Below are positions 4,207 to 60,976 of a stretch of 64,000 nucleotides of DNA, piece after piece. The notes below the pieces were generated by a model. It did not search any database. It had not been told where the DNA came from and saw only the letters and a program-made list of their open reading frames with translations. How positions within the stretch are numbered: position 1 is the stretch's first letter; every line of letters begins with the position of its first letter. This DNA comes from Pontiella agarivorans (GTDB taxonomy: Bacteria > Verrucomicrobiota > Kiritimatiellia > Kiritimatiellales > Pontiellaceae): contig NZ_JARVCO010000010.1 in the NCBI RefSeq assembly GCF_034531395.1, forward strand, positions 868,001 to 932,000, read 5' to 3'. The position numbers and the translations under genes were made by a program.

Positions 4207-5289
4207 ATGTCAGCTAAGGTTCTTGATGCTGTAAAACCGGGTGTTCTCTTTGGAGACGACGTCGCTAAAGTTTTCGAAATTGCAAAGGCCAATAAATTCG
4301 CTCTTCCGGCCGTAAACGTTGTGGGTTCAGATTCCATCAACGGAGTTTTGGAAGCGGCCGCAGCCGTCAACTCTCCGGTCATTATTCAGTTTTCCAACGG
4401 CGGTGCAGCATTCACGGCCGGTAAAGGACTGAAACTCGAAGGTCAGGATGCACAGATTCTCGGTGCGATTGCCGGGGCAAATCATGTACACGCCATGGCA
4501 GAAGCTTATGGGGTTCCGGTTATTCTTCACACCGACCACGCCGCTAAGAAACTGCTACCGTGGATCGACGGTCTGCTCGACGCCGGTGAGAAGAAATTTG
4601 CTGAAGAAGGGCGTCCGCTCTTCTCCTCCCACATGCTCGACCTCTCCGAAGAAACCCTCGAAGAAAACATCGAGATCTCCGCGAAGTATCTCGAGCGCAT
4701 GTCTAAAATCGGCATGACCCTCGAAATCGAACTCGGTTGCACCGGCGGTGAAGAAGACGGCGTCGATAACTCCGATATGGATGAGTCCAAGCTCTACACT
4801 CAGCCGGAAGACGTTGCCTACGCATATGAAAAACTGAACGCCATCAGCCCGAACTTCACGGTTGCGGCTTCTTTCGGTAACGTGCACGGCGTTTACAAAC
4901 CGGGTAATGTAAAACTGACCCCGACCATCCTGCGTGATTCCCAGGCTTATGTTGCTGAAAAATTCGGCACGGATTCCGCTCAGCCGCTGAACTTTGTGTT
5001 CCACGGCGGATCCGGATCCTCCCCGGCGGAAATCGAAGAGTCTATCGGTTACGGTGTAATCAAAATGAACATCGACACCGACACACAGTGGGCCACCTGG
5101 GAAGGTGTATTGAATTTCTATAAGGAAAATGAAGGCTACCTGCAGGGTCAGCTCGGCAATCCGGAAGGCGCCGACAAGCCGAACAAGAAATTCTACGATC
5201 CGCGCGTCTGGCTGCGTAAAGGCCAGGAAGGCATGATCAACCGCGTGAAACAGGCCTTTGCCGACCTCAACGCCGTTGGCGTAAACTAA
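4207..5289 (+). CDS. fba: Class II fructose-bisphosphate aldolase
   Basis: A 360-residue zinc aldolase that interconverts fructose 1,6-bisphosphate with DHAP and glyceraldehyde 3-phosphate. It matches the FbaA (type A class II) pattern throughout: VILHTDHAAKKLLPWIDGLL (zinc histidines and catalytic Asp), PLFSSHMLDLSEE, GNVHGVYKPGNVKL, NFVFHGGSGS and NMDTDTQWA-like NIDTDTQWA. The start has a strong AGGAAGGA ribosome site 7-8 bases upstream. Codon use is more restricted than in neighbours, as expected for a highly expressed gene. It is followed by a palindrome copy and a strong terminator, so it is a single-gene transcript. Confidence 0.97.
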   Translation: MSAKVLDAVKPGVLFGDDVAKVFEIAKANKFALPAVNVVGSDSINGVLEAAAAVNSPVIIQFSNGGAAFTAGKGLKLEGQDAQILGAIAGANHVHAMAEAYGVPVILHTDHAAKKLLPWIDGLLDAGEKKFAEEGRPLFSSHMLDLSEETLEENIEISAKYLERMSKIGMTLEIELGCTGGEEDGVDNSDMDESKLYTQPEDVAYAYEKLNAISPNFTVAASFGNVHGVYKPGNVKLTPTILRDSQAYVAEKFGTDSAQPLNFVFHGGSGSSPAEIEESIGYGVIKMNIDTDTQWATWEGVLNFYKENEGYLQGQLGNPEGADKPNKKFYDPRVWLRKGQEGMINRVKQAFADLNAVGVN

Positions 5290-57357: not shown

Positions 57358-57990
57358 TTATTTTCCGTCGGATGCTGAAGCGGTTTGCTGCACCTGAAGC
57401 ACGGCTTCGTAGACTGATTCCGAGTTCATATCATTGTGCTCAGCAATTTCTTTGAAGGTCCAATCGGGCGATGCCTCGATCCCGATTTTTTCCAGGCCGA
57501 CGATAATCCGGTTGATGTCCATGTCGTACTTTCCGGAGAGCCGGCGCATAGAGCGTCCGCTGTAGAACATCGGCGGTTTTTCGGGGAGAGCCGGTTTGTC
57601 TTCATTTACCTGTATTTCGGGATCATTTTCGACCACGCTCTGCTGAATCTGTTCTTCTGTCGGGCCGGCATGTTCCGAAGACTGGAAAAATGAAAACGGC
57701 GGCCAGTGCAGCAGGGCACCGAGAATCACCCAGCCGGTGAGCAGCAGGGCGGTATAGGAATTAACGGTCAGCCACTCGCGCTTTTTCCCGGTAATCCGGT
57801 TGTTGGCATTGTCCTTTCTGATTTCCAGCGTGGTTTGGATGATATAGCAGAGGCCGAACAGTATGCTGAGGCTCACATGCAGAATCAGCAGGGTCTCCCA
57901 CAGGCTGAACAGGGTGGCGATTGCTGCGCTGAGGATCAGCGAAAAAAATGAAAACAGAGCGGTAAGGGTGACGACGTTTTTAAATTTCAT
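57358..57990 (-). CDS. DUF4405-like membrane protein
   Basis: A 210-residue protein. Three hydrophobic helices (about 7-30, 33-53, 75-95), an acidic linker, and a C-terminal helical part RSMRRLSGKYDMDINRIIVG ... TFKEIAEHNDMNSESVYEAV. DUF4405-type proteins often carry this kind of C-terminus, and a redox or membrane-sensing role has been suggested by context in other genomes. The function is unknown. It sits between smpB and the persulfide genes. ATG at 57990 is the only good start. Confidence 0.6.
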   Translation of the reverse strand: MKFKNVVTLTALFSFFSLILSAAIATLFSLWETLLILHVSLSILFGLCYIIQTTLEIRKDNANNRITGKKREWLTVNSYTALLLTGWVILGALLHWPPFSFFQSSEHAGPTEEQIQQSVVENDPEIQVNEDKPALPEKPPMFYSGRSMRRLSGKYDMDINRIIVGLEKIGIEASPDWTFKEIAEHNDMNSESVYEAVLQVQQTASASDGK

Positions 57991-58129: not shown

Positions 58130-58804
58130 TCAGATAAACAGGTTCCCGTTTCCGCCGATGTGGTCGATATACATGGCCACGCCGCCTTCTTCGATGCCGT
58201 CGATCAGTTCCTCGCTTTTAATGCCCATGAGGTCCATCGACATGGTGCAGGCCACAATTTTTACGCCGTTTCCGATGGCTTCGTCGATCAGCTCGGGAAG
58301 GGAGAGCACATTTTTCTGTTTCATGATGCCTTTAATCATGGCTGCGCCCATGCCGCCCATCTGCATCTGCGAAAGTTTCAGTTTTTCAGGGCCCTTCGGC
58401 ATCATCCAGCCGAACATTTTTTCGACCAGGGTTTTCTTCGCCGAAACCGGGCCGTTCCTGCGCAGGACATTCAGTCCCCAGAAGGTGAAAAACAGGGTGA
58501 CCTGATAGCCCATCGCCGCTGCGCCGTTGGCAATGATGAATGCCGCCAGCGCTTTATCCAGATCATTACTGAAGACGACATTGGTGAATTTTTTATCCGC
58601 CGGTTCCGCCGTCGCAGGGCAGCTGGCGCCGGACGATTTGATCACCACGGCTTTATAGCTTCCGTTCTCGGGTTCCAGAGACTGGAAGATATTTCCGGTC
58701 GAGTTGCACCAGGCCGGAACGTCGGCGGCAAATCCGGGGTCGGTGGAAAGGATGCTGACCGCCTGCCCGTCGCCGATCCGTTCGATGGCTTTGGACAGCT
58801 GCAT
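58130..58804 (-). CDS. DsrE-family protein with N-terminal TusA-like part lacking a normal start codon
   Basis: A DsrE/DrsH-like sulfur-carrier protein of at least 224 residues. Upstream of the first ATG (58804) the same frame reads HIDATGLQCPGPI, the conserved TusA sulfur-binding CPxP site, so the true coding part starts earlier. No ATG, GTG or TTG exists in this frame up to a stop at 58904-58906. The frame joins that of the upstream CoA-disulfide reductase by a -1 shift at an A10 run. It is probably the C-terminal half of one long protein. The DsrE part has FTNVVFSNDLDKALAAFIIA, FFTFWGLNVLRR and IVACTMSMDLMGIK with the active cysteine. Palindrome copy at 58673-58687. Confidence 0.88.
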   Translation of the reverse strand: MQLSKAIERIGDGQAVSILSTDPGFAADVPAWCNSTGNIFQSLEPENGSYKAVVIKSSGASCPATAEPADKKFTNVVFSNDLDKALAAFIIANGAAAMGYQVTLFFTFWGLNVLRRNGPVSAKKTLVEKMFGWMMPKGPEKLKLSQMQMGGMGAAMIKGIMKQKNVLSLPELIDEAIGNGVKIVACTMSMDLMGIKSEELIDGIEEGGVAMYIDHIGGNGNLFI

Positions 58805-58860
58805 GATCGGGCCGGGACATTGCAGGCCGGTCGCATCAATATGTTCCGCAATTTCAGCGG

Positions 58861-60585
58861 TTATGCTTTTTTTTTTACCGCATCGACCGAGCTCATGCCG
58901 GCATCATCGGCAGTGGTTTCATTTTCCGGAATGATGTCGGGCTGATGGGCGGTTACCATACCGTAGGTCTTGTATCCTCCGGTCAGGTTACGGCATTTGA
59001 ATCCGTTCTGCCCCATAATCCGGCAGGCCAGATAACCGCGGAGACCGACCTGGCAGAAAATCAGATATTCTTTGTCTTTATCCAGGTTTTCGAGGTTTTC
59101 GCGCAGCTTCGGCAGTGGAATATTGGATGCGCCGGGAATGGTTCCGCCGGCGACTTCCTCGGGATTGCGCACATCAATGAGTTTCTGATTTTCGGCGGGA
59201 TGGAGGGCTTCCTCCACATGGAACAGACGGGCATCGCCGCGCAGGACGTTGGCCGCCGTGAAGCCGGCATAGTTGACCGGGTCTTTGGCTGAGCCGAAAG
59301 GAGGAGCATAGGTGAGCTCCATTTCTTCGAGATCATACACGGTCAGACCGGCGCGGATGGCCACGGCGATGACATCGATTCGTTTGTCGATGCCGTCGGC
59401 GCCGACGGCCTGGGCACCGAGCACTTTTCCGGTGTCCGGATCAAACAGGAGCTTCAGCGAAACCGGGTGCGAACCCGGATAGTAGGACGCATGGCTGGCG
59501 GGGTGGACATAGACCTTTTCGTAGCTGATGTTCAGACGCTTTGCCGTTTTTTCGCTGAGGCCGGTCATGCCGATGGCTATATTGAACACTTTGCAGATGG
59601 CGGTTCCCTGCGTGTTTTTATAGGTGCTGTCGCGGCCGAAAATATTGTCGGCGGCAATACGGCCCTGGCGGTTGGCCGGTCCGGCCAGCGGAATAAGTGC
59701 GGGCTGGTTGGTGGCGAAATCTGTAATTTCAACGGCATCGCCGACGGCATAAATCGCCGGATCGGAGGTCTGCATATGGGCGTCGGTTTTTATACCGCCG
59801 GTGGTGCCGATTTCCAGCCCGGCGTTCACGGCGAGTTTGGTTTCGGGTTTGACGCCGATCGCCAGTACGGCGACGTCGACATGCAGGCGGTCCCCGTCAC
59901 TCAGAATGAGATCCACGCCGGAGGCGGATTCCTCGAATGCGGTAACCGACGTTTCAAGTTTCAGATTTACGCCGAACAGTTTCAGTTCCTGGTGCAGCAC
60001 GGTGGCCATTTCGGGATCGGCCGGGCCCATCACCTGCGGGGCGAGCTCGATCAGCGTGGTTTCATAATCGCGATCGCGAAGGGCTTCGGCCATTTCGAGG
60101 CCGATGTAGCCGCCGCCGATGACCGCCGTGGATTTTTTATTTTCCAGAGCCTGGATAATATAATCCATGTCTTCCAGATTGCGCAGCGTTAGAACATGGG
60201 GATTGTCGATGCCCGGAATCGGCGGGCGCACCGGTGCGGCGCCGGGGCTCAGGACCAGGTTATCGTAGGTTTCGGTGTATTGCTCTCCGTTGGCGAGGTT
60301 TTTAACCGTTACGGTTTTGGCATTGCGATCAATGGAGATGACTTCCGATTGGGTGCGCACATCCAGGTTGAATTTGGAAACCATGGCTTCCGGTGTGGTC
60401 ACCAGCAGTTTATCACGGTCGGTGATCTGGCCGCCAATGTGGTAGGGCAGGCCGCAGTTGGCGAATGAAATGTCGGGGCCGCGTTCGAACAGAATAATTT
60501 CAGCGGTTTCATCCAGGCGGCGCGCACGCGCTGCAGCACTGGCGCCACCGGCGACGCCTCCGACAATCAATAATTTTTTGCTCAT
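58861..60585 (-). CDS. CoA-disulfide reductase with rhodanese domain
   Basis: A 574-residue flavoprotein. FAD-binding GGVAGGASAAARARRLDE, redox Cys44 in FANCGLPYHIGG, NAD-binding AVIGGGYIGLEMAEAL and a C-terminal dimerisation domain (VHPASHASYYPGSHPVSLKL) make up the CoADR part. A rhodanese domain (about 465-550, YLIFCQVGLRGYLACRIM) carries a second active cysteine. Such proteins reduce CoA or glutathione persulfides and polysulfides. In other bacteria this enzyme is often one chain with TusA and DsrE parts. Here it stops at an A10 run directly before them. It lies downstream of an ArsR regulator on the same strand. Confidence 0.93.
   Translation of the reverse strand: MSKKLLIVGGVAGGASAAARARRLDETAEIILFERGPDISFANCGLPYHIGGQITDRDKLLVTTPEAMVSKFNLDVRTQSEVISIDRNAKTVTVKNLANGEQYTETYDNLVLSPGAAPVRPPIPGIDNPHVLTLRNLEDMDYIIQALENKKSTAVIGGGYIGLEMAEALRDRDYETTLIELAPQVMGPADPEMATVLHQELKLFGVNLKLETSVTAFEESASGVDLILSDGDRLHVDVAVLAIGVKPETKLAVNAGLEIGTTGGIKTDAHMQTSDPAIYAVGDAVEITDFATNQPALIPLAGPANRQGRIAADNIFGRDSTYKNTQGTAICKVFNIAIGMTGLSEKTAKRLNISYEKVYVHPASHASYYPGSHPVSLKLLFDPDTGKVLGAQAVGADGIDKRIDVIAVAIRAGLTVYDLEEMELTYAPPFGSAKDPVNYAGFTAANVLRGDARLFHVEEALHPAENQKLIDVRNPEEVAGGTIPGASNIPLPKLRENLENLDKDKEYLIFCQVGLRGYLACRIMGQNGFKCRNLTGGYKTYGMVTAHQPDIIPENETTADDAGMSSVDAVKKKA
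58867..58876 (-). other. A10 run (minus strand) at the reductase/TusA-DsrE junction: candidate slippage site
   Basis: Ten A residues in the coding strand immediately before GCA-TAA. Reading one base back (-1), or adding one A, turns the end into AGC-ATA-ACC-GCT-GAA and continues into the TusA-DsrE frame without a stop. Confidence 0.6.
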
Positions 60586-60676: not shown

Positions 60677-60976
60677 TTAATCCCGGAAATTAAGGTATTT
60701 ACGCAGGTGGGTGTGCATGCAGGTGAAAACGCGGAGAAAATCGCGGTTGCACAGGCTGCAGTATTTCTGAATGCCGTCTTTTCGGATGGTGATCAGTTTT
60801 TGCTGACAGAGAATTTTGAGCTGCTGCGACATCATGGACTGGCTGCAGCCCAGCTCTTCATAGAGCTCGGTTACGGTTCGTTCTCCTTCCGCAAGCACCT
60901 CAATCACGCCGAGACGGATGGGGTGAGCCATCGCCTTCAGCACCTCGGCTGCCATATTTCTCTCTTCAGCGGTCAT
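60677..60976 (-). CDS. ArsR-family regulator, probably sulfur- or persulfide-responsive
   Basis: A 99-residue winged-helix repressor: MAHPIRLGVIEVLAEGERTV and CSQSMMSQQLKILCQQKLIT (recognition helix), then KYCSLCNRDFLRVFTCMH. It has six cysteines. The C-terminal pairs could form a disulfide or tetrasulfide, as in SqrR/BigR-type sensors, or bind a metal. It lies 92 bp upstream of the CoA-disulfide reductase with a palindrome between them, so that gene is the likely target. The inducer is inferred, not shown. Confidence 0.87.
   Translation of the reverse strand: MTAEERNMAAEVLKAMAHPIRLGVIEVLAEGERTVTELYEELGCSQSMMSQQLKILCQQKLITIRKDGIQKYCSLCNRDFLRVFTCMHTHLRKYLNFRD

Follow-up and report, generated by a model that had tools for sequence, protein, structure and literature searches.

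Does a gene whose reading frame breaks inside a homopolymer still yield the long enzyme of its relatives, and is the break real at all? The question is raised by a locus of Pontiella agarivorans NLcol2, described in its genome report as a free-living marine anaerobe (PMC10880615). The genome amounts to 4,436,865 bp in 12 contigs, with a G+C content of 52.4%, and the window analysed here is a stretch of 64,000 nt, to which all positions refer; all window features given below lie on the minus strand. A frame of 574 codons (58861..60585) encodes, as judged from Pfam matches and from the solved chain 3nta, a CoA-disulfide/persulfide reductase joined to a rhodanese. As originally predicted, it ends in GTA-AAA-AAA-AAA-GCA-TAA (VKKKA*), so that a run of ten A (58867..58876) is followed by a single codon, GCA, and the stop TAA (58861..58863). 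Directly after the run, the -1 frame continues through a TusA-DsrE2 part (58130..58866) that is open to its stop at 58130. Upstream, this second frame is bounded by a stop at 58904..58906, and none of ATG, GTG or TTG occurs in it between that stop and TusA, again as predicted; its first ATG (58802..58804) lies inside TusA, past the CPGP motif. A shift at the A10 run would join the two frames into a product of 573+1+244 = 818 residues, slightly longer than the previous estimate of about 815. No other A10/T10 occurs in the window; the presence of the run alone is unremarkable, because dinucleotide shuffles expect 0.9 per window, and it is its placement that matters. As an A/T run of about nine or more linking two frames it has the form of a slippage site, and it also holds, in the zero frame, two overlapping copies of the slippery heptamer A-AAA-AAA suited to a -1 ribosomal shift.

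The four domains of a reductase-rhodanese-TusA-DsrE2 fusion are all present at the locus and a single continuous frame is absent, the frames differing at the A10. Matches to Pyr_redox_2, Pyr_redox_dim, Rhodanese, TusA and DrsE_2 each exceed their own Pfam cut-offs, and the predicted intact TusA site (DATGLQCPGP) was found within a TusA domain at 58637..58840 (PF01206, 66.5 bits), followed by the DsrE2 domain at 58157..58594 (PF13686, 198 bits). Scores against the NCBIfam models remain below their curated cut-offs for CoA-disulfide reductase (TIGR03385, 515.9 bits, cut-off 578.8), DsrE2 (NF047629, 90.2 bits, cut-off 210) and TusA (NF001423, 43.9 bits, cut-off 78). By family membership, the short product is expected to function as an NAD(P)H-dependent persulfide or CoA-disulfide reductase. 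Since proteins of the TusA and DsrE2 families carry sulfur, the long form would probably hand sulfane sulfur on within one chain. Outside the TusA-DsrE2 part of the split locus, the P. agarivorans genome has no match to either TusA or DsrE2. Upstream, an ArsR/SmtB-type regulator (60677..60976; NF033788, 73.9 bits, cut-off 55) does not reach the cut-off of the BigR model (51.3 bits, cut-off 155) and is retained in six of seven relatives, the one at L045 not being found with the pattern used. On the other side, a 210-aa ORF (57358-57990) with no Pfam match adjoins the fused gene.

Comparison with orthologues, which the original prediction had proposed as a check, was carried out at two depths, in 58 genomes of near relatives and, for the phylum as a whole, in 387 genomes, of which 111 gave any match. 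All full-length matches of the near relatives (27/27, own excluded) are fused in frame, and the single-chain reductase-rhodanese-TusA-DsrE2 proteins of relatives (817-831 aa, n=7) have the same four domains, identical in kind and order, in one frame. The single-chain arrangement, invoked earlier as a known design, is indeed one. In the phylum, 98 of the 104 full-length matches lie in one frame (at least 777 codons), five run off their contigs (assigned by coordinates, with contig ends checked for two of the five) and one is broken, the P. agarivorans locus itself. A set of 107 loci, in which some genomes are present twice, comprises 62 fused genes, 41 without TusA within 400 nt of the reductase-rhodanese part, three at a contig end and one split (L052); the two-domain and the four-domain enzyme are thus both natural designs, and it is in this species that the frame was altered. 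On these comparisons, the single frame is the ancestral state, and there is strong support for a one-base change specific to the lineage. No match to the fused gene was found in 26 of the 58 near relatives, some of whose genomes are incomplete, and judged by this distribution the gene is dispensable, not essential, in the group.

As a separate observation, the two halves of the fused gene differ in history when L038, L040, L042 and L017 are set against L039 and L041. Compared between the two halves, identity is 0.88 against 0.68 for L038-L039, and 0.90 against 0.92 for L038-L017. In AU tests, for groups chosen after the trees had been inspected, the reductase-like grouping L038+L039+L040 was rejected for TusA-DsrE2 (p 6.8e-11) and the TusA-DsrE2-like grouping was not rejected for the reductase half (p 0.077). 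These differences point to a swap of domains, with the linker as its boundary, in L038, L040, L042 and L017.

A sequencing or assembly error, with the genome truly carrying the joined frame, would explain why no other homologue of the phylum is broken (98 of 104 in one frame, the five others running off contigs). Homopolymers are moreover the commonest place for sequencing errors, and the break sits in one. On the other hand, other A9/A10 runs in the same assembly are in frame, and the genome was sequenced with Illumina HiSeq 4000 150-bp paired reads, assembled with MEGAHIT, at a reported mean coverage of 593x (PMC10880615), because of which a homopolymer error is unlikely; overall, we regard this explanation as very improbable. 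The frame break at A10 is, by the sequence evidence, real and species-specific.

The whole genome contains 55 runs of nine or more A/T and three runs of ten A: at the reductase locus, outside any long frame (L129) and in dnaX. Inspection of 21 loci from a hand-made list was followed by a systematic pass over all 55 runs, whose 15 'intragenic' runs are in mechanical ORFs rather than proven genes; only at the reductase locus does a run end a long frame with a long start-less open frame downstream. The one other mechanical match, L148, was discarded for having its own overlapping ATG. A coarse scan of codon usage on either side of the runs had flagged many frame changes; among the 21 loci inspected, those flagged elsewhere than at the reductase locus lay at gene starts, between genes or at the ATG of L148. 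When codon shuffles of 34 window ORFs are scaled up to a coding sequence assumed to total 3.9 Mb, 126 runs of nine or more and 41 of ten or more are expected, against the 55 and 3 observed, a genome-wide shortfall that, as drawn from the codon use of one window, agrees with avoidance. The window itself, with two and one runs, is not below its own expectation of 1.6 and 0.5.

Could the two frames simply be two separate proteins? Stand-alone TusA and DsrE2 proteins exist, and the zero-frame stop is close to where the -1 frame resumes, so the second part might start through an unusual codon, by re-initiation at the TAA or at the ATG inside TusA. However, no ATG, GTG or TTG lies ahead of TusA, no Shine-Dalgarno-like sequence was seen by eye, a search for promoter-like sites within the gene gave none, and a start at the ATG of position 58804 would omit the TusA cysteine. 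Separate translation is consequently the least credible of the explanations considered, and we give it hardly any weight.

An indication that a run of this kind may be read in two frames comes from dnaX. The own dnaX gene carries an A10 with an A9 located 77 nt before it (genome C12:1067747-1067833; L171:1501-1587). Within the order Kiritimatiellales, 45 genomes were searched and 41 gave a match (loci including L208-L237); an A9 and/or A10 is kept in all 30 loci examined (the best 30 of the 41 genomes with a match, own included), and in all 30 of these best loci stops occur in both other frames at most 35 nt from the run. A previous pass with a narrower run pattern had found the run in 15 of 15 loci. 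The A9 of a control gene, which from its sequence we take to be glmM-like, is kept in none of 29 relatives (36 genomes searched, 31 with a match, 30 loci fetched). A run of nine or more occurs in six of 25 further dnaX loci of the phylum and is absent from 19; in four of the six (L272, L276, L291 and L292, from other families) an A10 is followed 4-7 nt later by a stop, and the -1 frame remains open for 478-649 nt. The geometry of the reductase locus is the same, with an A10, a stop 6 nt after it and a -1 frame open for 744 nt. Both dnaX layouts, the in-frame run and the two-frame arrangement, are present in one phylum. In Thermus thermophilus dnaX, a run of nine A is described as serving transcriptional slippage (PMC1088944), and the dnaX of Kiritimatiellales looks like a Thermus-type slippage site, often a double one. 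A title search of the open-licence literature for dnaX slippage in this group returned no Kiritimatiellota paper. Taken together, these comparisons indicate that poly-A slippage is probably active in the P. agarivorans lineage, and suggest that it is a standing feature of the Kiritimatiellales, so that other 'broken' genes of the order would merit re-examination.

The dnaX runs also bear on phase variation at the DNA level, by which the tract length would flip between generations and switch the long form on or off in single cells. Long homopolymers are the usual substrate of phase variation, one is present here, and a near relative, B12219, has an in-frame A9 at the same place. However, the gene is neither a surface nor a defence gene, and the A9/A10 runs of dnaX remain in frame across the 30 loci examined (the best 30 of 41 genomes with a match); such switching is very improbable.

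If the break had left the TusA-DsrE2 part unread, some decay might be sought in it. Of the 59 columns that show no variation among the other rows, the part retains every one, just like the relatives, and its dN and dS are within the range of the relatives. The own end branch measures 0.073 for the reductase part; for the TusA-DsrE2 part it measures 0.13, which is no longer than the neighbouring branches; because dS is near saturation, relative rates cannot date the break. With the frame open and the conserved residues kept, the part does not look like a pseudogene, and a very recent break would look alike. A recent one-base deletion and nothing more, with a truncated two-domain enzyme, TusA-DsrE2 as a young pseudogene and negligible slippage, would agree with a break seen in one species, with an unconserved run and with the absence of the fused gene from 26 of 58 relatives. 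Against it are the lack of decay, the fact that the part holds the only TusA and DsrE2 domains of the genome, and the slippage-type runs retained in dnaX of the same lineage; we consider it unlikely, although it deserves to be kept in mind ahead of the other rivals.

The history of the tract can be followed in the rhodanese-TusA linker. Among 72 distinct fused linkers, only one has an A-run above six. In B12219, where the linker reads SKKKS, the A9 is in frame at the same position, seven residues from the DDAG motif as in P. agarivorans, and a transcript with one base more or less at this A9 would, as read by eye, meet an early stop either way. A likely route is that a change of lysine AAG to AAA lengthened the uninterrupted tract, which was later contracted. 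Simulation with pooled codons gave an A9 or more in 64 of 20,000 linkers of 46 codons; when codons were shuffled within the 72 linkers, 90 of 400 trials contained at least one linker with A9 or more. The occurrence of long A-runs at three loci (the own locus, B12219 and L052) is thus suggestive but weak, the own locus having been selected for its run and being related to B12219. The third case, L052 (Planctomycetota RA.bin122, 4700-4900), has an A9, a zero-frame stop just past it and TusA-DsrE2 in the -1 frame; it was not counted as support, and may be simply two genes, because TTG, GTG and ATG codons precede TusA in the second frame. The linker tract as a selected slippage switch, setting the ratio of a two-domain persulfide reductase to a four-domain one with sulfur-relay domains, with B12219 as a reversed case (A9 in frame, early stops in both other frames) and L052 as an independent one at an A9, appears doubtful.

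In any case, the explanation that we favour, with reasonable though far from full confidence, is a real species-specific contraction by one base, partly rescued by transcriptional slippage, which would give a short and a long enzyme. The ancestral gene encoded a single chain of about 820 residues, with CoA-disulfide/persulfide reductase, rhodanese, TusA and DsrE2. In the rhodanese-TusA linker of P. agarivorans, a long A tract now has ten A, a length that does not fit the joined frame; ordinary decoding therefore halts one codon on and produces the two-domain enzyme of 574 residues. Some transcripts probably vary in run length and would yield the four-domain enzyme of 818 residues, because in dnaX of the lineage A9/A10 runs seem to serve as slippage sites for RNA polymerase; in this manner, slippage would let the cell go on using the sole TusA-DsrE2 unit of its genome. 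Slippage at the reductase gene, as well as its level and any benefit, is what we infer from these likenesses. Alternatively, an identical protein would result if the ribosome shifted by -1 on the A-AAA-AAA heptamers; a 4-bp hairpin located 6 nt past the A10 (58846..58860, -6.3 kcal/mol) is weak, with z -1.9 in a 30-nt stretch and z 0.04 in 80 nt. Of the three options left by the original prediction, a lineage-specific change is upheld by the 98 of 104 matches in one frame, a sequencing error is disfavoured by the 593x coverage, and slippage, with partial rescue by the polymerase, is likely in view of dnaX; that it be 'programmed' is unsupported, given that members of the reductase family do not share the A-run (1 of 72 linkers above six), and selection for two products is possible. 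If slippage were confirmed, a free-living bacterium whose genome is not rich in A+T would draw two forms of a sulfur enzyme, one short and one long, from a single gene, and the forms would part exactly at the boundary at which both designs occur in nature. Without this reading, gene callers would miss the only TusA and DsrE2 domains of the genome.

A last point concerns the known systems to which this locus can be compared. The zero-frame product resembles the solved two-domain reductase-rhodanese enzymes 3nta, 3icr and 8a56, the nearest chain being 3nta (E 2.3e-206, residues 3-544 of 574), whereas in P. agarivorans TusA-DsrE2 comes next, in the other frame. With regard to slippage, published levels are about 20% for the tssM1 A11 of Citrobacter rodentium (PMC4256274), 25-30% for spa13 (PMC5009743), whose run is an A10 (PMC6260861), and 12-50% for endosymbiont runs (PMC5009743), as given in these reports; against slippage, no restored frame was reported when errors of transcription were surveyed in E. 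coli and Buchnera (PMC5574713). In tssM1, as described, the break also follows a poly-A tract, transcriptional slippage rescues it and two length variants result, but the run is an A11 and both variants were shown to be needed (PMC4256274). The poly-A genes of Buchnera and Blochmannia are likewise described with a frame break in a homopolymer, an intact remainder and rescue by slippage, in AT-rich, reduced endosymbiont genomes that contrast with a free-living organism of 52.4% G+C (PMC3017870, PMC5009743). In layout, the locus resembles the two-ORF dnaX, whose long product is reported to depend on slippage at an A10 (Antonov et al. 2013, PMC3711429): an A10, a zero-frame stop just after it and a -1 frame that continues, with the short product by default and the long one by recoding. 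Unlike the dnaX genes with conserved runs, the run of the reductase locus is confined to one species and lies in a sulfur enzyme.
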